NCBI RefSeq assembly: GCF_000384115.1
Contig: NZ_KB913029.1
Location: forward strand, 5,059,057-5,123,056
Direction: 5' to 3'
Source of the DNA: Sporichthya polymorpha DSM 43042
GTDB lineage: Bacteria; Actinomycetota; Actinomycetes; Sporichthyales; Sporichthyaceae
Length of the DNA stretch: 64,000 bases
Of the stretch, positions 4,956-42,399 are shown in pieces. How positions within the stretch are numbered: position 1 is the stretch's first letter; each line of letters starts with the position of its first letter. The notes below the pieces were generated by a model. That model saw nothing but the letters and a program-made list of their open reading frames with translations. It did no database searches and had not been told where the DNA came from. Position numbers and translations under genes: made by a program.

Positions 4956-7900
4956 TCACCATCCGATCCCGGGAGCGTCGTCTCGGCCGCGGTCGTGCAT
5001 GTGTTCGTGCGCTCTCCGACTGCTGCGCTCCGGTGAACGGAACGCGTCCCGGGCAGCGGCGCTTTCGAGGGCGCGTCGTGTCCGCGCCGACAGCCGCGGA
5101 ATCGTTTCCACTGAGGCCGCCGGGGCGAGGTAGACCTCGCTTCGCGCGGACCTGGCGCTTGTGTGCTGGAGGGCCCGCGCGCGGTGCTCTGTCTCGCGGC
5201 TACGGGCGTCGGCGGCGAGTTGGCGGGTGAGTTCGTCGATCTCCCGGTGGAGTTGCGCGGCTGCGGTGATGTTGCCGAGCAGCGCCTGCTCGTGCTCGGT
5301 GATGGTGGCGGCGAGGTCGCGGCGGCGCGCGGGACGGAGCCAGGAGGTACCGGCGAGTTCGATGCGAGCGGCGGCTGCGGCCTGCCGGTGCTCGCGCTGC
5401 TCGTGGTTGAGCTGGTCCCGCCGTTGCTGGCGCAGTGTCAGCTCGGTGGGCCGGGCGGCGTGTTCGGCGGGCAGGCCCGGTTCGGCCGCTCGGCGTGCCG
5501 CGTCCTCGGCGGCGCGGCGCGCCTGTTCGGCCGGGCGGACGCGTGCGTTCTCGCGGGCGGTGTGGGCGGCGTCCTGCGCGCCGCTGCTCGCCAGCGCGGT
5601 GGCGAGCACATCGAGAGCGCGCTCCTGGTCCGTCGCGCCGGATCGTCCGACCAGTGGCAATCCGTGACGGTCGTCGAGGTCCGTGGCGGTGTCGGGAGTG
5701 ATGTAGGCGTGGTTGGCGTCGCGGCCGCGGGTGAGCGCGACGTAGAGGTGTTCCCGGTCGATCCCGGGGCGCACGAGGACCAGGCCGACGTCGACGGTGG
5801 CGCCCTGGGCGGCGTTGATGGTGGCGGCCCAGCCGTACTCGGCGTGGGCTGCGGCGTAGGCGGCGGGCAGGAAGGTCCGGTCGCCGCGGTCGAGGTGCTC
5901 GACGAGCAGGCCGTCCTGTTGTGCGGTGAGGACGCGCCACCGGTCGCCGTTGCGCACGTGCCCGTCCCCCGCAGGCAGGGTGCGGTCGTTGCGGCGGGTG
6001 CGCAGCAGATCTCCGGCTTGCCAGTCCCGCTCACCGAGGCGCACGACCGGCCCGCTGATGTCGCCGGCGGCCTGGGCAGTGGCGCGGGCGCGGGTGTTGA
6101 GGGCGTCGACGTCGGCGCGGGTGCGGGCCATCATCAGCACCTCCCGCCCGGCGGCGCGTTCGGCCGCCCACTGCGCGTGCACCCCGTCGAGAGCCCCGTC
6201 GCCGTCGGCGCACGCGTGCAGACGGTCTTGGTCGCGGTAGGCGGTCAGCCCGGCGGGATCGCCGCGGCGCAGGGCGAGGGATGCGTCGCGTTCCCAGTCC
6301 TGACGGAACCGGTGCACCCCGGCGAGTTCGATGCCGTGCCCGGCCGCGGCGAGGGCGGCGAGCATGCCGCCGGGTCCGTTGACGACCCCGATCTGGGCGG
6401 GGTCACCGACCAGGACGACTTTGGCGCCGGCGCGGGCGGCGGCGGTGATCAGGGTGTCGAGGGCGTGGGTGTTGGCCATCGAGGCCTCGTCGACGATCAC
6501 CACGCTGCGGGCGTCGAGGACGACACGGGCGCGGGCGTCGGCCGGCATCCGCCCGCGCCGGGCGTGGTCATAGACCCACTTGGCGAGGGTGTCCGTGCGT
6601 GAGCCGGTCGCGTCGGCGAGTTCGGCGGCCGCGCGCGCGGACGGGGCCAGCCCGAGGACGCGGTGACCGGCACGGCTCCACGCCTCCGCTGCCAACCCGA
6701 GGGTGCGGGTCTTGCCCGCACCGGCCGGGGCCGTGAGCACCGAGAGGAAGTCCCCGCCCTCGGCGATGGCCCACACCGCAGCCCGCTGGGTGGCGTCCAG
6801 GCCGGCGTCTTCCAGGGCGAGGACCAGCGACGCGGCGGGAACCCGACCGTAGCCGCCGCCGCGACCGCGGTCGGCCAGCGAGAGCACCCGCGCCTCGGCC
6901 GCCAGCACCTCGGCGCCGGCCCACCGCTCATCCGACGCGCGTGCGGTGACCCCGTGCGGCTGCCGCCCGACCGACACCGCCTCGTCCAGGCCGAGGGCGC
7001 GGTCGGTCAGGGCCTCGACCGTGCGCAGGACCTCGGCCGCGCCGCGGCCATCGACCGGCACCCGCGCCGCCACCTGGCCGGCGACGTCGGCCCGGGAGAA
7101 CGTGGCCCGCGCCCCAGCGGCGGCCGCGACCGCGGCAGCCGCCACCTCCTCCCGCTCGCAGGTAGGAGCCAGGGGCGCGTCGACGGCCGCGGCCCGGACG
7201 TTCGCGAGGATCTCCTCACGGCGGTAGCCGGCGCGCTCCGCCTCGTCGGCCCAGGCCTGTCCCAGGGTCGCCTGATCGGGGTGGGTCTTGCCCGGGCGGG
7301 TCTTCAGCACCGCGGCCTTGGTCACCGCCGCCTGCTCGGCGGAGGTGAGGGACCGGCCGAGGGAGTTCTCGTATTCGGCGATTTTCACCGCGGCTTCGGG
7401 TTCGATTTGTGCGGCCCTTTTCGACCACAGCTTCAACAACCCGGCCGGGATACCGGCTATTTCGGCTTGGCCGTGCGCATTCGGTTCCTCGAACACCACG
7501 CCGACCCGGGCGTGCAATTCACTGCGCAGCGCCGCTTGATAAACCATTCCGGCGGATTTCTTGTGGTGGTACAACTCGGTGGCATCCAAGGTGCGCCACC
7601 GCCCGTCCGCGCAGCGGACCTTGTTCACCACCAGCGCGTGGGTGTGCAACTGCGGATCCCCGCACCGACTGGTCCGGTGCTCGAACGAGGCGGCGACCAG
7701 CCCCGCGGACGCGGTTTGTTCCACCCCGTCCATCCCCCGCCGCGACCAGGACGCGTGCGTGTCCAGGTACGTCAGCGCCGCCGCCACGGCGGCCCGGTGC
7801 GCGGCGCGCACCGAACTCGCGGTGTCCGGATCGCCCAGGGCCCATAAGGAACTGACGCTCTTCGGCGCCGAAAAGGTGAGGTCGAACCCGGTCACGCCAT

Positions 7901-8141
7901 CCCGGCGCCACGCCCGGCCCAACCGCTCCCCGGTCACCGGGTGCAGCGCCCGGGCGAAGAGCGCCTCCAGCTCCGATTCGCTCACCGTCGCGTCCGAGTC
8001 CAGGCTCAGCTCCGCCAGGCCGCGACCCGACCATCGGCCCGGCGCCTCGCCTGCCCCGATGTAGTAGTCCGTCGCCGCACACGCCACGCCGGCCGTGTAG
8101 TACCGCCACGACGACGTCCCGATCTTGGCCGAACTCAACAC
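4956..8141 (-). CDS. mobF: MobF-family relaxase with TraI/TrwC-like helicase domain
   Basis: The 1061-residue protein nicks oriT and unwinds DNA during conjugative transfer. It opens with VLSSAKIGTSSWRYY and has two Tyr pairs (14-15 and 26-27) plus a His triad (H155, and H166/H168 in LHTHALVVNK), the TrwC relaxase signature. A Walker A (TAPAGAGKT, ~470), a DEAS box (~549) and the C-terminal AATINAAQGATVD and LYVALTRGRD motifs mark a RecD-like helicase. The tail is Arg/Ala-rich and coiled. GTG at 8141 is chosen because it starts the conserved N-terminus and GGGGAGG lies 8-9 nt upstream. No coupling protein or mating-pore gene accompanies it, so transfer would rely on another element. Confidence 0.9.
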   Translation of the reverse strand: MLSSAKIGTSSWRYYTAGVACAATDYYIGAGEAPGRWSGRGLAELSLDSDATVSESELEALFARALHPVTGERLGRAWRRDGVTGFDLTFSAPKSVSSLWALGDPDTASSVRAAHRAAVAAALTYLDTHASWSRRGMDGVEQTASAGLVAASFEHRTSRCGDPQLHTHALVVNKVRCADGRWRTLDATELYHHKKSAGMVYQAALRSELHARVGVVFEEPNAHGQAEIAGIPAGLLKLWSKRAAQIEPEAAVKIAEYENSLGRSLTSAEQAAVTKAAVLKTRPGKTHPDQATLGQAWADEAERAGYRREEILANVRAAAVDAPLAPTCEREEVAAAAVAAAAGARATFSRADVAGQVAARVPVDGRGAAEVLRTVEALTDRALGLDEAVSVGRQPHGVTARASDERWAGAEVLAAEARVLSLADRGRGGGYGRVPAASLVLALEDAGLDATQRAAVWAIAEGGDFLSVLTAPAGAGKTRTLGLAAEAWSRAGHRVLGLAPSARAAAELADATGSRTDTLAKWVYDHARRGRMPADARARVVLDARSVVIVDEASMANTHALDTLITAAARAGAKVVLVGDPAQIGVVNGPGGMLAALAAAGHGIELAGVHRFRQDWERDASLALRRGDPAGLTAYRDQDRLHACADGDGALDGVHAQWAAERAAGREVLMMARTRADVDALNTRARATAQAAGDISGPVVRLGERDWQAGDLLRTRRNDRTLPAGDGHVRNGDRWRVLTAQQDGLLVEHLDRGDRTFLPAAYAAAHAEYGWAATINAAQGATVDVGLVLVRPGIDREHLYVALTRGRDANHAYITPDTATDLDDRHGLPLVGRSGATDQERALDVLATALASSGAQDAAHTARENARVRPAEQARRAAEDAARRAAEPGLPAEHAARPTELTLRQQRRDQLNHEQREHRQAAAAARIELAGTSWLRPARRRDLAATITEHEQALLGNITAAAQLHREIDELTRQLAADARSRETEHRARALQHTSARSARSEVYLAPAASVETIPRLSARTRRALESAAARDAFRSPERSSRRAHEHMHDRGRDDAPGIGW

Positions 8142-8377
8142 TCGCGAACGCCTCCCCGAAAGGCCAGCTCGCGCCCAACCGTACATTCAAAGAATGCACA
8201 TGTCTGCTGGGGTTAAGGGTTGAATTTGAGGTGTGCTGATGATTGTTGGTAACGATGGTTAGTGGGAGTTCGGTATGGGTTGTAGAGGCGATTGTCGGTA
8301 GGAGAATTTGTCGCGGACGAATTGCGCGATCGAGCGCGTGTCGGCGCGTCGCGTCGTGCTCCTGGCCGGTAGGCGAG
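8142..8377. other. AT-richer intergenic region upstream of the relaxase, candidate oriT
   Basis: The 236 bp before mobF hold no gene and include a stretch (about 8184-8335) clearly poorer in G+C than its surroundings. It contains the inverted repeat CATTC-AAA-GAATG (8184-8196) and GT-rich runs such as GGTTAAGGGTTGAATTTG. MobF relaxases often act on an oriT next to their gene. No nic site can be named by eye. Confidence 0.35.
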
Positions 8378-18761: not shown

Positions 18762-20224
18762 GTGTTCGTCGCGACGGGATCTGGGTTCAGGTCAGGGCGG
18801 TCAGTCGTTGGTGGCCGCCGGTGATCAGATCGGCCCAGGGCCATCGGGAGTTCAGGCGCAGGGTGCGCCGACGGCCGGTGGTGATCACGCGGGCGGCGAC
18901 GCTGAGCAGGCGTAGTCGAAGACGTTTGGGTTCCCAGCGGCGGGCCGCGTGGGTGGGCCAGGCCAGCAGCTGGGTCCAGACCAACAGCTCGGTGGCCAGC
19001 TGGGCGAGTTCGAGCCAGAGCTCGTTCTTGGTGAACGAGTGCAAGGGCAGGTTGGTGGCGCCGGTGTCTTTCAGCGTCCGGACGCGGTCCTCGGCCCGGG
19101 CCCGTAACCGGTGTCGGACTTCGAGATCGGCCAGACGAGAGCCGCGGGTGTTGGTGGCGAACACAGTGATGCGCCAGCCGTCCGCGTCGGTGATCCGCAG
19201 CTGCGCACCGACGTGGGGCTCCTCGCGACGGGCGATCACCCGCATGCCGGGCGGCCATCCGGTGAAGGAGGCCGGCAGCCAGCGGGTCAGTTCGGCGACC
19301 TGCGCGCCCGGGCGCGGGCACCCGTCAGCATCGAGGGCGGCGCGCCAAGCCTGGCGTGGTAGGACCGCGAGGGCATCGAGCACCGGTTGACGGGCGGCGA
19401 TCCCGACCGAGAACTCCAGGCCGAGCTCATGCACGTGGTTCAGCAAGTCCTTGACCCCGCCCGCGCTATCGGCGCGCACCAGCACCCCGCCCCGCACCGC
19501 TTCGGGCAGTTGGGCGAGTGCGGCATCGAGGACTGCGATCTGATCGGCGGCGTTGTTGGCATTCGCACTGCCGGGGCGCAGCAGCGCGGCCAACGGCTCG
19601 CCGGTTCCGGTCGGGCCGTGATCGGCGAAGGCCAGGAGCGGGTGGAACCCGAACCCGCGCTTGAAGGTCGGCGCCGCTCCTTCCTTCTCCGAATGCGCCC
19701 CGACCAGCGTGGCGTCCAGATCCAGCACCGGGCGGTCCTGACCAGCCCACGGATCGACCCGTGACCACACCCACGCCCGGGCCTGCGCGCGGGCGGCACG
19801 GATCGCGCCGAGTGTGGCTTTGGCCGTGTCCGGATCTGCGGCCAGGGTTTCGATAAGTCGGCTGACCGTCGGGTCCGAAGCCACCGGGCCGAACAGCTCC
19901 GGCTGCGCGCGCACCAACGCCAGATCGGCCAGACAGTCCCCACCCAACGCGATCGCGACCACCAGATCGAGCACCGTCTTACCTGGGTCGTGCACCGCCC
20001 GGTGCGCCCGCCACGGCGCCAACCCCCGGGACAGGGCACCGGCCAAGCCGCTGACCACCGCGGTCTTCAAAAGCAACGCCCCACCCGCTGAAGAGATCAG
20101 CGACTCGCCGCCAGCCTCAACACGGGGCACAGAACGAACCCGGCTACCCATCACCTACGGAGTGCCTTCCGGCTCGGCGATCTTGGACCTTCGACAAGCC
20201 CAGAATCCCGTGCCAGACAGGCAC
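18762..20224 (-). mobile_element. IS1380-family insertion sequence
   Basis: The element is defined by its single transposase gene and by imperfect inverted ends. The left end reads GTG...GTC...GACGGGATCTGGG inward (18762-18785). The right end, on the other strand, reads GTGCCTGTCTGGCACGGGAT followed by TCTGGG (20199-20224). About 19 of 25 positions agree. I see no clear target-site duplication, so exact borders are uncertain. It sits between a Kelch lipoprotein and a GNAT gene without breaking either. Confidence 0.6.
18787..20154 (-). CDS. IS1380-family transposase
   Basis: The 455-residue DDE transposase has DLDATLVGAHSEKEGA (first catalytic Asp region), ADSAGGVKDLLNHVHELGL (second Asp region) and a long C-terminal part with LPLHSFTKNELWLELAQLA holding the final acidic residue. 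The length is normal for the family and no frameshift is seen, so it may be active. Its stop codon lies directly inside the left inverted end. Codon use is similar to the surrounding genome, so it has probably been in this or a similar host for some time. Confidence 0.9.
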   Translation of the reverse strand: MMGSRVRSVPRVEAGGESLISSAGGALLLKTAVVSGLAGALSRGLAPWRAHRAVHDPGKTVLDLVVAIALGGDCLADLALVRAQPELFGPVASDPTVSRLIETLAADPDTAKATLGAIRAARAQARAWVWSRVDPWAGQDRPVLDLDATLVGAHSEKEGAAPTFKRGFGFHPLLAFADHGPTGTGEPLAALLRPGSANANNAADQIAVLDAALAQLPEAVRGGVLVRADSAGGVKDLLNHVHELGLEFSVGIAARQPVLDALAVLPRQAWRAALDADGCPRPGAQVAELTRWLPASFTGWPPGMRVIARREEPHVGAQLRITDADGWRITVFATNTRGSRLADLEVRHRLRARAEDRVRTLKDTGATNLPLHSFTKNELWLELAQLATELLVWTQLLAWPTHAARRWEPKRLRLRLLSVAARVITTGRRRTLRLNSRWPWADLITGGHQRLTALT

Positions 20225-21219: not shown

Positions 21220-21388
21220 TGCGGTCTCCTGAGGGTGTGGAACCGGCTGGTGCGCGGTCTCTCACCCCTGCTACGAACGCCCCGACCCGGAATCGACAAC
21301 GGCCGCCGAGAAATTTCGACGGATCTTTCCGGCCCCCGCCGTGGGATGCTCGCGGCACCGCACCACCCCGCGTCAGCCGGAGGTCCCC

Positions 21389-22318
21389 GTGCAGGTCACC
21401 GTCGCCGCCGTCCAGGCCACCCCGGTCTTCCTCGACACCGACGCCACCGTCGAGAAGGCCACCGCGCTGATCAAGGAGGCCGCCGACCTCGGGGCACAGC
21501 TCATCGTGTTCCCCGAGGCGTTCGTCCCGACCTACCCGGACTGGGTCTGGCGCCTGCCCGCCTGGAGCGACGGCCGGTACACGGGCCGCCTCTACGAGCA
21601 GGCCGTACAGGTCCCCGGCCCGGTCGTCACCCGCCTCGGCGAGGCCGCCCGCGAGGCCGGCGCCTACGTCGCGATGGGCATCAACGAGATCGAGGGCGGG
21701 ACGCTCTACAACACGCTGATCTACCTCGCCCCCGACGGCTCGCTCGCCGGCCGCCACCGCAAGCTCATGCCCACCGGCGGCGAACGCACCGTCTGGGGTT
21801 ACGGCGACGGTTCGACCCTCGACGTCGTCCGCACCCCGTTCGGGGTGGTCGGCGGACTGATCTGCTGGGAGAACTACATGCCGCTCGCGCGGGCGGCGAT
21901 GTACGCGCGGGGCGTCGAGATCCACCTCGCCCCGACGTGGGACAACGACGAGGCCTGGATCTCGACGTTGCGGCACATCGCCAAGGAGGGCCGCTGCTAC
22001 GTCATCGGGGTCTCCCCCGTCCTCCGCGGCGCCGACGTGCCCGCGGACCTGCGCGGCGACATCTACCGGGACGCGACCGACCCGGACGAGGCCGACTGGA
22101 TGAGCCGGGGCCTCGGCACGATCGTCGCGCCCGGCGGCGCGATCCTCGCCGGGCCGCTGCGCGATCAGGAGGGCATCGTCGTCGCCGAGATCGACGTCGA
22201 GCGCAACGTGCCGCCCCACCGGCGCCTGTTCGACCCCGTCGGCCACTACGCCCGCCCCGACGTCTTCACCCTGAACGTGAACACGCGCCCACAACCGAGC
22301 GTGCGGTTCGACGACTGA
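21389..22318 (+). CDS. Nitrilase (carbon-nitrogen hydrolase)
   Basis: The 309-residue enzyme belongs to the nitrilase branch and hydrolyses nitriles to acids and ammonia. The catalytic triad is visible as Glu43 (FPEAFVPTYPDW), Lys125 (HRKLMPTGGER) and Cys159 (GLICWENYMPLAR). The CWENYMPL context is typical of true nitrilases rather than amidases. GTG at 21389 is preceded by CCGGAGG. Length is slightly short of the usual 320-370, with a short C-terminal tail. The physiological substrate (aliphatic, aryl or cyano-compound) cannot be told. It stands alone, 97 bp before the amidoligase-like cassette. Confidence 0.88.
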   Translation: MQVTVAAVQATPVFLDTDATVEKATALIKEAADLGAQLIVFPEAFVPTYPDWVWRLPAWSDGRYTGRLYEQAVQVPGPVVTRLGEAAREAGAYVAMGINEIEGGTLYNTLIYLAPDGSLAGRHRKLMPTGGERTVWGYGDGSTLDVVRTPFGVVGGLICWENYMPLARAAMYARGVEIHLAPTWDNDEAWISTLRHIAKEGRCYVIGVSPVLRGADVPADLRGDIYRDATDPDEADWMSRGLGTIVAPGGAILAGPLRDQEGIVVAEIDVERNVPPHRRLFDPVGHYARPDVFTLNVNTRPQPSVRFDD

Positions 22319-22415: not shown

Positions 22416-25400
22416 GTGTCCATCCGTGTCGCGGTCGAGCACCGGACGATCTACCGCTTCGACCGCCCGACCGACATCGGGCCGCACCTGGTTCGCCTCC
22501 GGCCGGCGCCCCACTGCCGGACGCCGATCCTCGGCTACTCGCTGAAGGTCGCGCCCGAGCCGCACTTCGTGAACTGGCAGCAGGACGTCTACGGCAACCA
22601 CGCCGCGCGCCTGGTCTTCCCGGAGCCGGCGCGGGAGCTGTCGATCACCGTCGACCTCATCGCGGACCTCGCGGTCATCAACCCGTTCGACTTCTTCGTC
22701 GACTGCGACGCCCGTCAGTTCCCGTTCGAGTACCCCCGCGGCCTCGCCGACGACCTCGAGCCGTACCTGCGCCCGGTCGGGCACAACTCCCCCGGCTCGC
22801 CGCTGGCCGAGTGGCTCGACCGCTTCGACGCCGGCGCCGCGAAGGGCACCCCGATCGTCGACTTCCTCGTCGAGGTCAATCGCCGCGTGGCCGGCGACGT
22901 CGCGTACTCGATCCGCCTCGAGGAAGGCGTCCTGACCCCGGACGAGACGCTGACCCGCGCACTCGGTTCCTGCCGCGACAGCGCCTGGCTGCTGGTGGCG
23001 ATCCTCCGCGAGCTCGGCCTGGCCGCGCGGTTCGTCTCCGGCTACCTGGTCCAGCTCGTTCCTGACGACCCGTCAAATCTGCCCACCGGTGCTTCCGCCA
23101 CCGACTTCACCGACCTGCACGCCTGGGCCGAGGTCTACATCCCGGGCGCGGGCTGGATCGGCCTGGACGCGACCTCCGGTCTGCTCGCCGGCGAGGGCCA
23201 CATCCCGCTCGTCGGCACGCCGCGGCCGGAGCAGGCGGCGGCGATCACCGGCACCACCGGCCCGTGCGAGACCACGCTGGAGTTCGCCAACACGGTGCGG
23301 CGCCTCTACGAGGACCCGCGGGTCACCAAGCCGTACTCCCAGCAGCAGATCGAGCGCATCCACGCGCTCGGCGCCGAGGTGGACGCCCGCCTGGTCGCCG
23401 GCGACGTCCGGCTGACGATGGGCGGCGAGCCGACGTTCGTCGCCGCCGACGACATGGACTCCCCGCAGTGGCGCATCGCCGCCGACGGCCCGGAGAAGCG
23501 CGCGTTCGCCGTCGCGCTCGCCGACCGGCTGAAGGCCCACTACGCCCCGCGCGGGGTCGTGCTGCACGGGCAGGGCAAGTGGTATCCCGGCGAGCCGCTG
23601 CCCCGCTGGCAGATCGGCATCGTCTGGCGCAGCGACAACGCCGCGCTGTGGGCGAACCCCGACCTGCTCGACGATCCGTGGAGCGAGCCCGTCGTCGACC
23701 CCGGCTCCCCCGCCGCGCGCGCCGCGGTCACCGCCCTGACCGAGGCGATCGCCGCCGGCCTCGGGGTCCCCGCCGACTGCGTCCGCCACCTCTACGAGGA
23801 CCCGATCGACCGCCTCGCCGCCGAGGCCCGTCTGCCCGCCGGCGCACCACCGGAGCACGGCGCGGCCGCGCAGTCGGCGTGGCCGGCCGACGCCGAGCGC
23901 CGCCACGCCCTGATCGCCGAACTCGACGCCGAACGCGGGGATCCGGTCGCCTGCGCGATCCCGCTCAACCGCACCGAGGACGGCACCGGCTGGACGACGA
24001 CGCAGTGGCGCACCCGCCGCGGCGAGGTCTTCCTGCGCCCGGGCACGTCGCCGGCGGGGCTGCGGCTGCCGCTCGACGCCATCGCGTGGACGCCGCCGCC
24101 GGTCACGTTCGACCGCTCCCGGTTCGCCCCGGCCCCGCCGATGCCGCGGTACGCCGAGCCGCCGCCGAAGCCCGAACCGACCGACCCGGAACCGACGAGC
24201 CCCGCGGCGACGGTCCTCCCCGTCGAGGGGGCGCCGACGACCGCGTTGTGCGTCGAGGAGCGCGGCGGGCACGTGTTCGTGTTCCTGCCGCCGCTGCCCG
24301 ACGCCGCGGACACCGTCGCGCTGCTCGCCGTCGTCGAGGCGGGCGCGACGGCGACGGGCACCAAGGTCGTCCTCGAGGGCTACGCGCCCGCCGGCGACGA
24401 CCGGCTGCGCTCGCTGACCGTCACCCCGGACCCGGGCGTCATCGAGGTCAACGTCCACCCGGCGGCGAGCTGGACGGAGCTCGCGGAGATCAACGCGACG
24501 CTCGACTCCGCGGCGCGCGCGGTGGGCCTGGCGACCGAGACGTTCGGCCTGGACGGCACGCACACCGGCACCGGCGGCGGCGGGCATCTGACCCTCGGCG
24601 GCCCGACTGCGGCGGACTCCCCACTGCTGCGTCGGCCGGACCTGCTGGCTTCGATGGTCACCTACTGGCAGCACCACCCGGGCCTGACGTACCTGTTCTC
24701 CGGGCGCTTCGTCGGGCCGACCAGCCAGGCCCCGCGCGTCGACGAGGGCCGGGCCGAGAACCTCTACGAGCTCGAGATCGCCTTCGCCGAGCTCGCCCGC
24801 CTCGCGGCCGACGGCGACGTCCGGCCCTGGCACGTCGACCGCGCCCTGCGGCACCTGCTGACCGACATCGCCGGGAACACCCACCGCTCCGAGTTCTGCA
24901 TCGACAAGCTGTTCTCCCCCGACTCCGACCGCGGCCGGCTCGGCCTGCTCGAACTCCGCGGGTTCGAGATGCCGCCGCACCCGGACATGGCGCTGGTCCA
25001 GGCGCTGCTGGTCCGCGCGCTCGTCGCCCGGTTCTGGGACGCGCCGTACTCCGGGCCGCTGGTCCGCTGGGGCACCCGGCTGCACGACTCGTTCCTGCTG
25101 CCGGAGTTCGCGCTCGCCGACGTCGCGGACGTCGTCGCCGACCTGAACACCCACGGCATCGCGTTCTCCCCGGCCTGGCTGGACCCGTTCGCGGAGTTCC
25201 GCTTCCCGCGCCTCGGCGCCGTCGACGTGGCCGGGGTGCACCTGGAGCTGCGCCTGGCGATCGAGCCGTGGCACGTCCTCGGCGAGGAGGTCACCGGGTC
25301 GGGGACCGCGCGGTACGTCGACTCCTCCGTCGAGCGCGTGCAGGTGAAGATCACCGGCGCGGTGCCGGGCCGGCACGCCGTCACCTGCAACGGCGTCCCG

Positions 25401-25808
25401 CTGCCGCTGGCGCCGGCCCGCTCGGGCGACGCCCTGGTCGCCGGGGTGCGGTTCAGGGCCTGGTCGCCGCCGTCGGCGCTGCACCCGACGATCGATGTCC
25501 AGTCGCCGCTGGTCTTCGACGTCGTCGACCTGTGGAACGCCCGTGCCGTGGGCGGGTGCACGTACCACGTGACCCATCCGGGTGGCCGGGCATACACGAC
25601 GTTCCCGGTCAATGCGGGCGAGGCGGAGGCCCGCCGCGGGGCACGGTTCGTCCCCGAGGGCCACACACCGGGCCCGGTGGACGTGGAGGCATGGCAATCT
25701 GTGGCCATGCATCCGTCGCCGGCCACGTCGCTGATCGCGGGTACCGCGGCCGACGCCGGCGAGTACCCGCGCACGCTCGACCTGCGCCGGACCCGCCCCC
25801 GACGGTGA
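22416..25808 (+). CDS. Transglutaminase-like protein fused to DUF2126 (amidoligase cassette)
   Basis: The 1130-residue protein has a beta-rich bacterial transglutaminase N-region (HRTIYRFDRPTDIGPH), then a transglutaminase core with Cys186 (GSCRDSAW), His235 (DLHAWAEVY) and Asp251 (GLDATSG). A long DUF2126 domain follows from about residue 330, with MGGEPTFVAADDMDSPQW and a Pro-rich linker around 560-600. GTG at 22416 is chosen because GGAGGA precedes it at 4-5 nt. DUF2126 proteins are predicted members of the amidoligase-linked peptide-modification operons. The gene overlaps the next by 4 bp (GTGA). The substrate is unknown. Confidence 0.88.
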   Translation: MSIRVAVEHRTIYRFDRPTDIGPHLVRLRPAPHCRTPILGYSLKVAPEPHFVNWQQDVYGNHAARLVFPEPARELSITVDLIADLAVINPFDFFVDCDARQFPFEYPRGLADDLEPYLRPVGHNSPGSPLAEWLDRFDAGAAKGTPIVDFLVEVNRRVAGDVAYSIRLEEGVLTPDETLTRALGSCRDSAWLLVAILRELGLAARFVSGYLVQLVPDDPSNLPTGASATDFTDLHAWAEVYIPGAGWIGLDATSGLLAGEGHIPLVGTPRPEQAAAITGTTGPCETTLEFANTVRRLYEDPRVTKPYSQQQIERIHALGAEVDARLVAGDVRLTMGGEPTFVAADDMDSPQWRIAADGPEKRAFAVALADRLKAHYAPRGVVLHGQGKWYPGEPLPRWQIGIVWRSDNAALWANPDLLDDPWSEPVVDPGSPAARAAVTALTEAIAAGLGVPADCVRHLYEDPIDRLAAEARLPAGAPPEHGAAAQSAWPADAERRHALIAELDAERGDPVACAIPLNRTEDGTGWTTTQWRTRRGEVFLRPGTSPAGLRLPLDAIAWTPPPVTFDRSRFAPAPPMPRYAEPPPKPEPTDPEPTSPAATVLPVEGAPTTALCVEERGGHVFVFLPPLPDAADTVALLAVVEAGATATGTKVVLEGYAPAGDDRLRSLTVTPDPGVIEVNVHPAASWTELAEINATLDSAARAVGLATETFGLDGTHTGTGGGGHLTLGGPTAADSPLLRRPDLLASMVTYWQHHPGLTYLFSGRFVGPTSQAPRVDEGRAENLYELEIAFAELARLAADGDVRPWHVDRALRHLLTDIAGNTHRSEFCIDKLFSPDSDRGRLGLLELRGFEMPPHPDMALVQALLVRALVARFWDAPYSGPLVRWGTRLHDSFLLPEFALADVADVVADLNTHGIAFSPAWLDPFAEFRFPRLGAVDVAGVHLELRLAIEPWHVLGEEVTGSGTARYVDSSVERVQVKITGAVPGRHAVTCNGVPLPLAPARSGDALVAGVRFRAWSPPSALHPTIDVQSPLVFDVVDLWNARAVGGCTYHVTHPGGRAYTTFPVNAGEAEARRGARFVPEGHTPGPVDVEAWQSVAMHPSPATSLIAGTAADAGEYPRTLDLRRTRPRR

Positions 25809-28387
25809 CCGCGGGGAGCGAGTCCCGGACCGACGCGTCCGGGATGGTGCACGCCTACGCCGCCCGCCGGTCCGGGAACCGGACCGAGCGCGCGCGGTGG
25901 GACGAGATGGTCGGCTTCCACGGCCGGGTCCGCCGCGGCTGGCGCGAGCTGTCCGCGGTCGCGGAGAGCCTGGGGCCCTCCGGCCTGGCCGCCGCCGCGG
26001 CCGAGGCGCACCGCCTCCTGGAGGAGGACGGCGTCACCTACCGGCCGCTCGGCGCGCCGGAGGAGCAGACGTGGGTGCTCGACCCGCTGCCCGTCTTCGT
26101 CGACGAGGCCGAGTGGGCGATGCTCGAGCCCGGCCTGATCCAGCGGGCGAACCTGCTTGAGACCCTGCTCCACGACCTGTACGGACCGCGCAACACCCTG
26201 CGGTCGGGCGTCCTGCCGAACGAACTCGTCCACGCCCACCCTGGCTTCCTGCGGGTCTGGGACGGCGTCGCGACCGGGACGGCCCGCCAGCTGTTCCTCG
26301 CCGCCGCCGACCTGGCCCGGGCCGCCGACGGGACCTGGTGCGTCCTCGCCGACCGCGTCCAGGCCCCCTCCGGTGCCGGGTACGCGATGGCGAACCGGCG
26401 CGTGGTGTCCCGCGTCCTGCCCGGCCTGCACCGCGAGGCCGAGATCCACCGCCTCGGCCCGTTCTTCCACGCGATGCGGATCGGCCTCGAACAGGTCGCG
26501 CCGCCCACCGCCGAGGCGCCCCGCGCCGTGCTCCTGACCCCCGGCGCCGGCAGCGAGACCGCGTTCGAGCAGGCCTACCTCTCGACGCTGCTCGGTTACC
26601 CGCTCGTGCGCGGCGAGGACCTGGTCGTCGCCGACGGCCGGGTCTGGCAGCAGACCCTCGGCCGCCTGGAGCAGGTCGACGTCATCCTGCGCCGTGTCGA
26701 CTCCTGGTACTGCGACCCGCTCGACCTGCGCCCGGACTCCGAACTCGGCGTGCCCGGGCTGGTCGAGGCCGCACGCGCCGGCTCGGTGTCGCTCGTGAAC
26801 GGTCTCGGCTGCGGCGTGCTGGAGAACCCCGGCCTGCTGCCGTTCCTGCCCGCTCTGTGCCAGACGCTGCTCGACGAGCCGCTGCGGCTGAAGTCCGTGC
26901 CGACCTGGTGGTGCGGCGACGAGGCGGGGCTCGCCAAGGTCCGCGCCTCGCTGCCGGAGATGGTGATCAAGCCCCTCGCACGCGGCATCAGCCGCACCCG
27001 CGTCCACGGCTGGGAACTGACGGCTCAACAGCGCGAGGACCTGCTGCGCCGGATCGAGTCCGAGCCCTACGCCTGGGTCGGGCAGGAGTCGCTGCCCTGC
27101 TCGACCGCGCCGAGCATCATCGCCGACGACCTGTTCCCCCAGGACCTGACGCTGCGGACCTTCGCGGTCGCGTCGGGCGCGAGCTTCCAGGTGATGACCG
27201 GCGGCCTTGGGCAGGTCCGCACCTCGCCCGCCCTGACGGATCGTCAGGTTCTCACCACCAAGGACGTCTGGATCCGCAACACCCGCGGCGCGCCGACGAT
27301 CGAGCCCTGGGTCCGCGAGGCGACTCCGTCCCAGGTGCTCCCGCTCACGATCACGCCGCGCGTCACCGAGGACATGTTCTGGCTCGGCCGCTACGCCGAG
27401 CGGGCCGAGGACACCGCCCGCCTGGTCCGCGCGGTCAACGACCGCTGGGCGGACTTCCACCACTCCCCCGAGCGGACCGGCGCCGCCGCGCTCGCCGTGC
27501 TGCTCGAGACGCTGACCCGCGTCACCGCGACCACGCCGGGCTTCCTCGGCGTCGACGCCGACACCCGGTTCGCGGGCCGGGCCGGAGAACTGCTCTCGCT
27601 CGTCCTCGACGAGGAGCGCGAGGGCACGCTCGCGTTCGCGGTGCGCCGCCTCACCGAGGTCTCCGGCGACGTCCGCGAGCAGCTCTCGACCGACACCTGG
27701 CTCGTCCTCGGCGGCCTGGAGCGCGAGCTCGACCAACTGCGCCGGACGCTGCGCGGGCGGCAGGTCCTGACCCCGGACGTCCCGACCGCGATCGCCCGTG
27801 TGCTGGAAGGCCTGCTCGCCCTCTCCGGCCTGATCGCCGAGAGCCTGGTCCGCGACGCCGGCTGGCGGTTCTGCGAGATCGGACGCCGGGTCGAGCGGGC
27901 CCTGCACGTCACCGCGCTGCTCGAGGCGGCCGTCACCGCCCGACGGGCGCCGCAGACCGACAGCCTCGTCCTCGAATCGGTGCTCATCGCGGCGGAGAGC
28001 ATCATCACCTACCGTCGTCGGTACCAGGCTCGCGCCGGCGTCGGGACGATGCTCGACCTCCTCCTCGCCGATCGGGAGAACCCGCGCGCCGTGGCGTACC
28101 AGCTCGACCGGCTCGGCGAGGCGCTCGAGCGGATCCCGGCCGAGTCCGAGCGCATCTCGCCGGTGCGCGACGCCCTCGCCGAGATCCGGGCGATCATCCG
28201 CAACGCCGACACCGTCGCCCTCGCGCGGGCGGAGGAGGACGGGACGCGGCCGGGGTTGCGCGACCTGCTCTCCCACCTCAACAAGCTGCTCTCGACCCTG
28301 GCCGTCGACGTCGAGCGCATCTTCTTCGTCCAGCCGGCGCCGCAGCGTCCGCTCGACGTCACCGTCTCGACGTGGGAGGCCTGGTGA
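25805..28387 (+). CDS. Circularly permuted ATP-grasp fused to alpha-E domain
   Basis: The 860-residue protein joins two parts often encoded separately. Residues ~20-510 are a circularly permuted ATP-grasp type 2 ligase (YRPLGAPEEQTWVLDPLPVF; LLTPGAGSETAFEQAYL; KPLARGISRTRVHGWEL). Residues ~520-860 are an alpha-E helical domain (TEDMFWLGRYAERAEDTARL). The ATP-grasp half would form an amide bond on an acyl-phosphate intermediate; the alpha-E role is unknown. It overlaps both neighbours by 4 bp (GTGA), so the three proteins are made in a fixed ratio. The fusion supports direct contact of the two domains in the pathway. Confidence 0.88.
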   Translation: MTAGSESRTDASGMVHAYAARRSGNRTERARWDEMVGFHGRVRRGWRELSAVAESLGPSGLAAAAAEAHRLLEEDGVTYRPLGAPEEQTWVLDPLPVFVDEAEWAMLEPGLIQRANLLETLLHDLYGPRNTLRSGVLPNELVHAHPGFLRVWDGVATGTARQLFLAAADLARAADGTWCVLADRVQAPSGAGYAMANRRVVSRVLPGLHREAEIHRLGPFFHAMRIGLEQVAPPTAEAPRAVLLTPGAGSETAFEQAYLSTLLGYPLVRGEDLVVADGRVWQQTLGRLEQVDVILRRVDSWYCDPLDLRPDSELGVPGLVEAARAGSVSLVNGLGCGVLENPGLLPFLPALCQTLLDEPLRLKSVPTWWCGDEAGLAKVRASLPEMVIKPLARGISRTRVHGWELTAQQREDLLRRIESEPYAWVGQESLPCSTAPSIIADDLFPQDLTLRTFAVASGASFQVMTGGLGQVRTSPALTDRQVLTTKDVWIRNTRGAPTIEPWVREATPSQVLPLTITPRVTEDMFWLGRYAERAEDTARLVRAVNDRWADFHHSPERTGAAALAVLLETLTRVTATTPGFLGVDADTRFAGRAGELLSLVLDEEREGTLAFAVRRLTEVSGDVREQLSTDTWLVLGGLERELDQLRRTLRGRQVLTPDVPTAIARVLEGLLALSGLIAESLVRDAGWRFCEIGRRVERALHVTALLEAAVTARRAPQTDSLVLESVLIAAESIITYRRRYQARAGVGTMLDLLLADRENPRAVAYQLDRLGEALERIPAESERISPVRDALAEIRAIIRNADTVALARAEEDGTRPGLRDLLSHLNKLLSTLAVDVERIFFVQPAPQRPLDVTVSTWEAW

Positions 28388-29355
28388 CGACCACGACTCT
28401 GGCCACGGAGATCCCGGCCCACGCGAAGGTGTGGCGACTGGTGCACCGCACCGAGTACGTCTACGACGACGACGTCGACACCTCCTACGGACGCGGCCAT
28501 CTGATTCCCCGTCATGGCGACGGCCAGCACCGCATCGCCGCCGAGGTCGAGGTCGACCCGGAGCCGGCGGACCTGCGCGAGCACACCGACTACTTCGGCA
28601 ATCGCTCGACCTACTTCGCGGTGCGCACGCCTCACCGGAAGCTGACGGTGACGGCGACCAGCGTCGTCGCCGTCCACCGGGGAAGCGCCCGGCGCGACGC
28701 GCTCCGCGGGCTGCGAGCCAAGGACGTCCACGACCGTCTCGCCGACCGCAGCGACCTGACGCCGGACCTCAACGCCGCGCGGCAGTACCTGCTCCCGTCG
28801 CCGATGGTCGGACGCGCCGACCAGGTCGCCTCGTTCGCGCGCGACCTGATGCGGCCCGCACGCAGCCTCGACGAGGTGGTCGCGGACCTGCTCGACCGCA
28901 TCCGCGACGGCTTCGCCTACGTCACCGGGGCGACGACGGTGACCACGACGCTCCCCGAACTGCTCGCGACCCGGGAGGGCGTCTGCCAGGACTTCGCGCA
29001 CCTTGCGGTCGCGAGCCTGCGCGCCGTCGGGCTGGCCGCCCGGTACGTCTCCGGCTACCTGGAGACTCAGCCCCCGCCCGGCAAGCCGCGGCTGATCGGC
29101 GCCGACGCCTCCCACGCCTGGGCGTCGGTGTTCGCCCCCGGCATGGGCTGGATCGACTTCGACCCGACCAACCACAAGTTCGTCGACGACACCTACATCG
29201 TCACGGCCATCGGGCGGGACTACTCCGACGTCCCGCCGCTCAAGGGCGTCATCTTCACCGAGAGCACCAAGAACACCCTCACGGTCTCGGTGGACATGGC
29301 CCCGCTCACGGCGGAGATCCCCGACGCGGGATCCCGCGATCCCGGGAGCGCGTGA
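28384..29355 (+). CDS. Second transglutaminase-like peptidase/ligase of the cassette
   Basis: The 323-residue protein has the bacterial transglutaminase N-domain (WRLVHRTEYVYDDDVDTSYG) and a core with Cys201 (EGVCQDFAHLAVASLRAVGL), His244 (DASHAWASVFAPG) and Asp260 (IDFDPTNHKF). Such proteins can be peptidases or acyl transferases. It starts at GTG overlapping the ATP-grasp/alpha-E gene by 4 bp. Two transglutaminase-type enzymes flanking an ATP-grasp ligase is the layout of the predicted peptide-tag or peptide-synthesis operons. It has no signal peptide, so action in the cytoplasm is likely. Confidence 0.88.
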   Translation: MTTTTLATEIPAHAKVWRLVHRTEYVYDDDVDTSYGRGHLIPRHGDGQHRIAAEVEVDPEPADLREHTDYFGNRSTYFAVRTPHRKLTVTATSVVAVHRGSARRDALRGLRAKDVHDRLADRSDLTPDLNAARQYLLPSPMVGRADQVASFARDLMRPARSLDEVVADLLDRIRDGFAYVTGATTVTTTLPELLATREGVCQDFAHLAVASLRAVGLAARYVSGYLETQPPPGKPRLIGADASHAWASVFAPGMGWIDFDPTNHKFVDDTYIVTAIGRDYSDVPPLKGVIFTESTKNTLTVSVDMAPLTAEIPDAGSRDPGSA

Positions 29356-29399
29356 CCACGGAGCGCTTGACCAGCGGTTTTGCGGGGTAGCGTCGCGAC

Positions 29400-30407
29400 G
29401 TGCGCTCCTTCTCCTGCCCGAAGTGCGGGCACCTGCTGTTCTTCGAGAACAGCCTCTGCCTGAACTGCGAGTCCGAGGTCGGGTTCGACCGGGCCGCGGC
29501 CGAGTTCGTCCTCGCGCCGCCCGCGACGCGGTGCGCCAACGCCGTCCTGGCCGAGTGCAACTGGATCGCACCCGACGGCGGGCTCTGCGACTGCTGCGAC
29601 CTGACCCGCACCCGCCCCAGCGACGACGACACCGAGGGCATGGCCGCGTTCGCCCGCGCCGAGGCGGCCAAGCGCCGGCTGCTCTACCAGCTCGACGACC
29701 TCGGCCTCGGTGTCGAGGCCACGCCGGACTGCCCGGGCCTGGAGTTCGACCTGCTGTCCTCGGTCGACGAACCGGTGACCACCGGGCACGCGGACGGCGT
29801 CATCACCCTCGATCTCGCCGAGGGCGACGACGGGCACCGCGAGACCATGCGCGTCCGCCTCGACGAGCCGTACCGGACCCTGCTCGGCCACTTCCGTCAC
29901 GAGGTCGGGCACTACTACTGGATGCGTCTCGTCGACGGGGGTCCCGCGCTGCCGGCGACCCGCAAGCTCTTCGGCGACGAGCGGGCCGACTACGCCGAGG
30001 CCCTCGCGGCGCACTACTCCTCCGACCCGGAGCCGGGGTGGGACCAGACCCACGTCTCGATCTACGCCACCGCCCACCCGTGGGAGGACTGGGCCGAGAC
30101 GTTCGCCCACTACCTGCACATCCGCGACGCCCTACAGACGGCCTCCGCGTTCGGCATCGTCGTCGCGGGCCCGGAGGTCGAGGTCCCGCCGGACCCCGAC
30201 GCCCCGCTGGCGTCGGTCCCGATCGAGACCGACGACTTCGACGACCTGGTGAACTCCTGGCTCCCGCTGACCTACGCGCTCAACGCCGTCAACCGGAGCA
30301 TGGGCAAGAAGGACCTCTACCCGTTCGTGCTCTCCCCCGCGGTGCTCGACAAGCTCCGCTTCGTGCACACGTTGGTCACGCGCAAGCCGCCTGCACGTCC
30401 GCAATGA
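29400..30407 (+). CDS. Zinc-ribbon protein with HEVGH metallopeptidase domain
   Basis: The 335-residue protein starts with a zinc ribbon (C6, C9, C20, C23) and continues with a putative zinc-binding metallopeptidase domain. HEVGH (H167, E168, H171) is the active-site helix and WEDWAETFAHYLHIRD supplies a downstream Glu/His region. This matches the family annotated as putative zinc-binding metallopeptidase (Peptidase_Mx type). It starts 45 bp after the second transglutaminase and is likely the last gene of the cassette. It would suit removal or trimming of the peptide that the ligases make. Its last 32 bp overlap the convergent VOC gene. Confidence 0.8.
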   Translation: MRSFSCPKCGHLLFFENSLCLNCESEVGFDRAAAEFVLAPPATRCANAVLAECNWIAPDGGLCDCCDLTRTRPSDDDTEGMAAFARAEAAKRRLLYQLDDLGLGVEATPDCPGLEFDLLSSVDEPVTTGHADGVITLDLAEGDDGHRETMRVRLDEPYRTLLGHFRHEVGHYYWMRLVDGGPALPATRKLFGDERADYAEALAAHYSSDPEPGWDQTHVSIYATAHPWEDWAETFAHYLHIRDALQTASAFGIVVAGPEVEVPPDPDAPLASVPIETDDFDDLVNSWLPLTYALNAVNRSMGKKDLYPFVLSPAVLDKLRFVHTLVTRKPPARPQ

Positions 30408-41043: not shown

Positions 41044-42399
41044 ATGTCCCGCCAGCAGCGGGTCGTCCGGACCGCCGCCGCGACTCGGCGGGACCGGGCG
41101 GTCACCGTTCTCGCCGCGCTGCTGCTGGCCGCGATGGGGCTGGCCGCCGTCCTCGTCGGGCCCCAGGCCGAGGCCGACCAGGCCCCGACGGCCGAGCCGG
41201 CCTACGCGCCGGCCGCGACGTCCTCGCCCAACCCGGGGCCGGCGTACCCGGCCGCGGCGACCGCGACCCGGTACCGCGGGCTCGCCTTCGACATCTGCAC
41301 CGCGCCCTCGCGCCGGGCCATGGAGGCCTGGCGCGCCTCCCCGTACGGCGCGGTCGGGATCTATGTGAGCGGCCGCAACCGGGCCTGCACGCAGCCGGAG
41401 CTCACCGCGGCCTGGGTGCGGGACATCAGCGCCATGGGCTGGAAGCTGCTGCCGATCAACATGGGCCTGCAGGCGCCGTGCCGGGAGAACAAGCGCAAGA
41501 AGCCGATGAAGCCGGCCTCGGCGGCGGCGTCCGGGCGGACGGAGGCCGCGGAGGCGGTCGTCGCCGCCAAGAACCTCGGCCTGCTGCCCGGCTCCCCGAT
41601 CTACGCCGACATCGAGCCCTACGACCCGAGCAAGCCCCGTTGCGTCAGGGCCGTCGCGGCCTACGTGAGCGCCTGGACGCGCGAGCTGCACCGCCACGGC
41701 TACCTCTCCGGGCTGTACGGCGCGCTCTCCTCCGGGCTCGCCGACGCGGCGAAGCGGTACAACTCGAAGACCGACGCCCGGCCCGACGCCGTGTGGGTCG
41801 CGCGCTGGGACCGCTCGCCGCGCCTGACCGGCTGGGCCGGGGTCCCGAACAACCGCTGGTCGGCCTCGCAGCGCGCGAAGCAGTACCGCGGGGACCACGC
41901 CGAGACGCACGGCGGCGTGCGGATGGTCATCGACTCCGACTCCGTCGACGCCCCGGTCGCCACGGTGGCGCGCACGTACCCGGTCACGAGCGCCTCGACG
42001 CTGAACTTCCGCCGCTCCCCCGGGACCTCGGCCGAGATCGTCGGCTCCGCCGAGCCGGGCACCGAGGTCGCGGTGGTGTGCCAGGTGAGCGGCCCCGAGG
42101 TCGAGGGCTCGCGAGTCTGGGACAAGCTCGTCGACGGCAGCTACGTCTCCGACGCCTACGTCGGCGGCGGGGCACGCAAGCCGCTGCCGACCTGCAGCTA
42201 CCCGGTGCAGGTCCTGACCTCGGGCGGGGCGTTCACCCGCACGGGCCCGGCGGACACGACGCCGACCGCAGCGAAGCTCCCGCTCGGCTCGCTGGCCTGG
42301 ATCTCCTGCCGCCAGGGCACCTGGGTCCAGCTCCACAACGGCCTGTACCTCAACCGCCGCCACCTCGCGCCGTACACCGCCCCGTTGCCGAACTGCTGA
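41044..42399 (+). CDS. Secreted DUF1906 (glycoside hydrolase-like) protein with SH3-like tail
   Basis: The 451-residue protein has an N-terminal signal/anchor (TVLAALLLAAMGLAAVLVGP), a Pro/Ala-rich linker, a DUF1906 Rv2525c-like TIM-barrel (RGLAFDICTAPSRRAMEAWR to GGVRMVIDSDSVDA) and a C-terminal SH3-type region (STLNFRRSPGTSAEIVG; AKLPLGSLAWISCRQGTWVQ). DUF1906 proteins resemble glycosidases and may act on cell-wall or extracellular glycans. Several paired Cys suggest disulfides outside the cell. The start is ATG at 41044 after AACGAGAGG. Confidence 0.82.
   Translation: MSRQQRVVRTAAATRRDRAVTVLAALLLAAMGLAAVLVGPQAEADQAPTAEPAYAPAATSSPNPGPAYPAAATATRYRGLAFDICTAPSRRAMEAWRASPYGAVGIYVSGRNRACTQPELTAAWVRDISAMGWKLLPINMGLQAPCRENKRKKPMKPASAAASGRTEAAEAVVAAKNLGLLPGSPIYADIEPYDPSKPRCVRAVAAYVSAWTRELHRHGYLSGLYGALSSGLADAAKRYNSKTDARPDAVWVARWDRSPRLTGWAGVPNNRWSASQRAKQYRGDHAETHGGVRMVIDSDSVDAPVATVARTYPVTSASTLNFRRSPGTSAEIVGSAEPGTEVAVVCQVSGPEVEGSRVWDKLVDGSYVSDAYVGGGARKPLPTCSYPVQVLTSGGAFTRTGPADTTPTAAKLPLGSLAWISCRQGTWVQLHNGLYLNRRHLAPYTAPLPNC

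Follow-up and report, generated by a model that had tools for sequence, protein, structure and literature searches.

The four-gene cassette described here belongs to a type of system that is known but uncharacterised, and we give an even chance to the explanation that, within the known amide-ligation system built from ATP-grasp, Alpha-E and transglutaminase (TG), it constitutes the second module, the one with DUF2126; DUF2126 would then carry out the ligation and the product of gene 2 would serve as a non-canonical subunit. The explanation builds on features documented in the sequences, namely the architecture of the cassette, the conservation of the TG and HExxH residues, the loss of ATP-grasp residues, the split of the ATP-grasps into two clades, the co-occurrence of a further set of genes and the linkage of a peptidase.

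The window, that is the whole stretch of 64,000 nucleotides that was analysed, corresponds to positions 5059057-5123056 of contig C1 of a single-contig genome of 5.5 Mb. According to Pfam, gene 1 (22416..25808, +) encodes Bact_transglu_N and Transglut_core domains together with DUF2126 (1122 bits for the latter), gene 2 (25805..28387, +) a CP_ATPgrasp_2 domain (444 bits) and Alpha-E (217 bits), gene 3 (28384..29355, +) a stand-alone transglutaminase-like protein with Bact_transglu_N and Transglut_core, and gene 4 (29400..30407, +), which starts 44 nt past the end of gene 3 on the same strand, Zn_ribbon_DZR_6 and Peptidase_Mx (334 bits). The open reading frames and the Pfam matches thus bear out the genes, domains and positions given in a preliminary description of this DNA, as well as its 4-bp overlaps: start and stop overlap by exactly 4 bp between genes 1 and 2 (25805..25808, +) and between genes 2 and 3 (28384..28387, +), an exact length that recurs in 8/66 and 49/71 homologous same-strand pairs, respectively. 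An NCBIfam search gave no match. A carbon-nitrogen hydrolase (nitrilase-like) is encoded 97 bp upstream of gene 1 (21341-22318, +); it was rejected as a functional partner, not being seen at the other DUF2126 loci searched with the nitrilase. Elsewhere in the window, a DDE transposase (DDE_Tnp_1_4; 18787-20154, –) lies upstream of the cassette, a TrwC-type relaxase/helicase protein (4956-8186, –) suggests an integrated conjugative element nearby, and a protein with an Rv2525c-like glycoside-hydrolase-like domain is found at 41044-42399 (+).

Gene 2 had been taken for the ligase of the cassette, a role that did not hold up, the Glu and Asn inferred to bind Mg and the Gly loop being lost in essentially all fused homologs. 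In a comparison of 51 dereplicated fused with 26 dereplicated stand-alone ATP-grasps (L083 numbering), the E-x-N motif reads LEDNxRxPSG in the stand-alone proteins and typically LADRxQAPSG in the fused ones, and gene 2 has A182, R184 and Q186 where the former have E, N and R. Glu174 is present in 100% of the 26 stand-alone proteins versus 2% (1/51) of the fused ones, the sole exception being L143, and Asn176 in 100% versus 0% (0/51). We take these two residues to be the Mg ligands, on the strength of the general ATP-grasp E-x-N motif of known structures rather than of a ligand-bound CP structure. The Gly loop follows the same pattern, Gly387 and Gly390 being kept in 4% and 2% of the 51 fused proteins versus 100% of the 26 stand-alone ones, as do Asp441 and Asn473 (0% versus 100%), both lost in gene 2; the equivalent of Lys381 is kept in 29% of the fused proteins, gene 2 among them. 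The stand-alone CP-ATP-grasps retain the EDN motif, the Lys and the Gly loop, and 25 further ones from 23 DUF2126 genomes, used as a control, are intact, 11 of the 13 tested positions being kept in all and each of the other two showing one substitution. In gene 2, the E-x-N motif and the Gly-rich nucleotide loop by which a catalytic ATP-grasp is recognised are both absent.

The replacement residues are themselves conserved among the fused proteins (Arg in 42/51, Gln in 40/51, Glu340 in 50/51), which argues for repurposing and not decay, and the ATP-grasp residues D169, R198, D304, R451 and D487 remain. In the Alpha-E part of gene 2 both E-R motifs are kept, and several Arg and Asn residues conserved in stand-alone Alpha-E are lost. 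Fused and stand-alone ATP-grasps fall into two separate clades with support 1.0; since the tree is midpoint-rooted, the direction of change is read from the motif common to other ATP-grasps. Gene 2 is therefore probably a repurposed pseudo-ATP-grasp, as judged from its residues; pseudoenzymes can retain or alter chemistry. A literature search for an inactive ATP-grasp, with Iyer et al. (2009) outside its reach, found nothing, and the only solved relative of gene 2 retrieved by sequence was 3n6x, over the ATP-grasp part.

An intact stand-alone ATP-grasp/Alpha-E/TG set, with the ATP-grasp residues in place, is present in the same genome 114 kb from the cassette (L083 7022-10451, i.e., G000:C1 about 5197021-5200450). 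Such co-occurrence extends to the other genomes: stand-alone-type Alpha-E was found in 70/70 DUF2126 Pseudomonadota genomes queried, together with the long-frame, fused-type Alpha-E in 64/70 (in three of the six genomes without it, DUF2126 lies at the end of a contig), two or more Alpha-E copies are present in 6/6 DUF2126 Actinomycetota, and an intact stand-alone ATP-grasp occurs in all 23 DUF2126 genomes checked. Three genomes of the same class (G038, G074, G096) likewise hold the four cassette families plus the stand-alone set elsewhere.

In gene 1, the TG triad C186/H235/D251 is invariant in a 39-sequence alignment, along with other polar residues including E338, K388, E677, H724, R824 and E846-x-R848; the DUF2126 residues were mapped to glutamine synthetase (GS) ligands by motif resemblance only. 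Foldseek searches with an AF2 model of TG-DUF2126 (pLDDT 80.7) retrieved transglutaminases, plus weak GS and GmaS matches (prob about 0.75-0.91, E 0.009-0.05), the top-ranked GS-type fold match being gamma-glutamylmethylamide synthetase (E 0.009, also weak), with other GS enzymes scoring alike. These matches to a model are in line with the label "putative amidoligase" that DUF2126 carries in Pfam and do not amount to proof of it; a sequence search for solved relatives of DUF2126 or Alpha-E found none. Because the usual catalytic residues are gone from the ATP-grasp of gene 2 and of nearly all the relatives examined, the predicted GS-like DUF2126 is probably the working ligase, and a likelier one than gene 2.

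A gene-neighbourhood survey was run on 51 DUF2126 loci from Pseudomonadota, Actinomycetota, Bacteroidota and others, picked non-randomly from search hits. TG is fused to DUF2126 at 50 of the 51 loci, a fused ATP-grasp-Alpha-E is present at 48 and a further TG at 49, and the cassette core, made of the fused ATP-grasp-Alpha-E and a second TG, is found at 48/51; the three loci without it include one contig-end case. Gene order and overlaps show much more conservation than chance would give, and the ATP-grasp/Alpha-E fusion, which had been put forward as a special feature of this cassette, is the norm. DUF2126 itself occurs in 71 of the 249 Pseudomonadota genomes sampled (about 28%) and in 6/149 Actinomycetota genomes. 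Among ORFs of at least 100 aa at the 51 loci, and over 15 further loci, no widely shared extra neighbours were seen, Anbu being the informative one. At L130 7733-11122 and in genomes G217, G245 and G393, DUF2126 adjoins Anbu and Alpha-E is only of the stand-alone type. These three small genomes apparently lack the fused ATP-grasp, a minimal arrangement, which means that gene 2 is not required everywhere.

The TG triad of gene 3, C201/H244/D260, is invariant in a 47-sequence alignment, so that the Cys-His-Asp residues ascribed from the outset to both TG domains are confirmed. Peptidase_Mx, described from the start as a zinc-ribbon HEVGH peptidase, indeed has H167-E-V-G-H171 and the ribbon cysteines, and matches the family profile; H167, E168, H171, E233 (likely the third ligand) and the ribbon cysteines are invariant in a 56-sequence alignment. 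Loss of catalytic residues in homologs, named beforehand as a finding that would count against the earlier reading, is seen in the ATP-grasp, and the TG triads and HExxH are invariant. An AF2 model of Peptidase_Mx (pLDDT 92) has weak fold matches to a putative zinc metallopeptidase and gluzincin-like enzymes, and the nearest relative found, at 75% identity, comes from a Sporichthya MAG.

Linkage of the metallopeptidase in other genomes, on which the earlier reading also depended, was recovered in one phylum and is sparse in the other. Among 149 Actinomycetota genomes, Peptidase_Mx lies within a few kb of DUF2126 in 6/6 genomes with DUF2126 and exceeds the cut-off in only 1/143 without it (Fisher 5e-10). 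The 249 Pseudomonadota genomes comprise 24 with DUF2126 and Mx, 47 with DUF2126 only and 10 with Mx only (p 4e-8); only 9/71 DUF2126 genomes have Mx linked to DUF2126 and 47/71 have no Mx, and Anbu, which the query matched in 85/249 genomes, is linked to DUF2126 in 16/71, all other than the nine with linked Mx. Mutual exclusion of Mx and Anbu at DUF2126 loci was considered and rejected, zero loci with both against about two expected by chance not being significant. The same single-sequence query did not find Anbu in the genome studied here. The association between DUF2126 and Mx is real, and the peptidase is optional and lineage-dependent. The synthesise-attach-remove cycle suggested earlier may operate but is unsupported as a general mechanism, given the 47/71 Pseudomonadota without Mx; as an obligate cycle it is weakened, since Mx is linked in only 9/71 and Anbu in 16 others.

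Among the closest systems known in other bacteria are those of M. tuberculosis, Rv2566-Rv2569c and Rv2409c-Rv2411c, which we take to comprise the same four families plus the stand-alone set elsewhere, with gene directions presumably differing from those of the cassette. A peptide- or amide-bond system of these families, also mentioned in the preliminary description, is already in the literature: later papers (PMC3597751, PMC6376114, PMC5666114) credit its prediction to Iyer et al. (2009; Mol BioSyst 5:1636), and by these accounts it has the same families, coupling in the genome and predicted amide-bond chemistry as the cassette, whose core is common to 48/51 DUF2126 loci. Here, CP-ATP-grasp, Alpha-E, TG and DUF2126 domains come together in one operon-like cluster. 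The Anbu operon shares the ATP-grasp, Alpha-E and TG families, and Anbu is linked to DUF2126 in the 16/71 Pseudomonadota mentioned above, whereas the operon's ATP-grasp and Alpha-E are separate genes, its ATP-grasp is intact, and the cassette has Peptidase_Mx in place of Anbu. The B. cenocepacia cluster I35_5080-83 similarly brings an ATP-grasp, Alpha-E and TG under common regulation with a large TG protein, but its gene list gives ATP-grasp and Alpha-E separately and contains no peptidase, and the cluster is NtrC-regulated (PMC5491218). The Rlo operon of P. aeruginosa likewise has a peptidase alongside an ATP-grasp and a transglutaminase-like protein, but with a RimK-related ATP-grasp, a transglutaminase that is membrane-bound and inactive, and an aspartic retropepsin as the peptidase; neither DUF2126 nor Alpha-E figures in its description (PMC12239564).

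The physiological data available come from Proteobacteria and partly from Anbu-type operons. Actinobacteria use GlnR rather than NtrC for nitrogen regulation, and the window contains 7 matches to a GlnR-type motif versus 5.3 expected, none of them near the cassette. In P. putida, nitrate instead of ammonium raises PP_2688 and PP_2685 about 16-22x (log2 3.99 and 4.44; PMC8050072), the B. cenocepacia cluster is NtrC-dependent (PMC5491218), and in marine metagenomes DUF403/404/407 co-vary and cluster with urea domains (PMC3597751). By analogy, the cassette probably has a role under nitrogen limitation in this actinobacterium. The ATP-grasp of an Anbu operon releases phosphate from ATP, and Anbu showed no peptidase activity (PMC6376114).

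An explanation close to that of the preliminary description would keep gene 2 as a still active ligase of altered chemistry, its substitutions re-tuning metal and nucleotide binding to suit another substrate, so that two working ligases would be encoded. The strong conservation of the replacement residues, the remaining D169, R198, D304, R451 and D487 and the release of phosphate by a stand-alone relative (PMC6376114) speak for it, but the inferred Mg-ligand Asn is lost in 51/51 and the Glu in 50/51 fused proteins, the Gly loop is gone and often the Lys too (29% kept), removing nucleotide and metal sites together, and every genome checked also has an intact paralog; we regard an active gene 2 as unlikely.

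Slightly less doubtful, though still improbable, is nitrogen salvage, which concerns the substrate and is compatible with the explanation that we favour: DUF2126 would act in the manner of GmaS or PuuA, adding gamma-glutamyl groups to amines or peptides, and usable nitrogen would be freed by the TG-like hydrolases and the peptidase. This would suit the rank of GmaS among GS-type fold matches, the NtrC dependence or induction by nitrogen limitation of relatives (PMC5491218, PMC8050072) and the association with urea genes in metagenomes (PMC3597751), but the GmaS match is weak (E 0.009) and equalled by other GS enzymes, conserved amine-catabolism neighbours are absent from the 51 DUF2126 loci and the adjacent nitrilase is not conserved. 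The least probable of the three is protein tagging, in which the ligases would attach a peptide tag and Peptidase_Mx or Anbu would strip it or degrade the tagged protein. Following Iyer et al. (2009), tagging has been suggested as the task of the Anbu operon (PMC6376114, PMC5666114), and one of the two peptidases is linked at 25/71 Pseudomonadota, and Mx at 6/6 Actinomycetota, DUF2126 loci; against it stand the 47/71 DUF2126 Pseudomonadota genomes without Mx, the lack of a conserved tag-like neighbour among ORFs of at least 100 aa at the 51 loci and the failure of Anbu to show peptidase activity (PMC6376114).

In the explanation of the cassette as the DUF2126 module, DUF2126 would form an amide bond, peptide or gamma-glutamyl in type, at a GS-like active site, and the fused TG domain of gene 1 would act on the same substrate. 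The former CP-ATP-grasp and Alpha-E of gene 2 would make up the non-canonical subunit, probably scaffolding or substrate-presenting and translationally coupled to the second transglutaminase (gene 3). The module would work atop the intact stand-alone ATP-grasp/Alpha-E/TG set of the same genome, with Peptidase_Mx as an accessory for which other lineages have Anbu or nothing, and nitrogen limitation, by analogy with proteobacterial relatives, would be its probable setting. A broader proposal, which in our view falls just short of an even chance, is that in one ancient conversion an ATP-grasp became a conserved subunit, non-catalytic or chemically repurposed, that is joined to Alpha-E and was taken on by a GS-like ligase. 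The resulting pathway would have two ligases, with the DUF2126 module relying on a second, intact ATP-grasp/Alpha-E/TG module and using interchangeable peptidases.

What the analysis usefully adds is the probable pseudo-ATP-grasp, apparently new, together with the findings that an intact set co-occurs and that the peptidase depends on the lineage. These points matter because DUF2126, whose chemistry is uncharacterised, is carried by about 28% of the sampled Pseudomonadota genomes (n=249). Targets for assays, residues to mutate, double mutants and nitrogen limitation as a condition follow from the probable pseudo-ATP-grasp, the intact second set and the optional peptidase.
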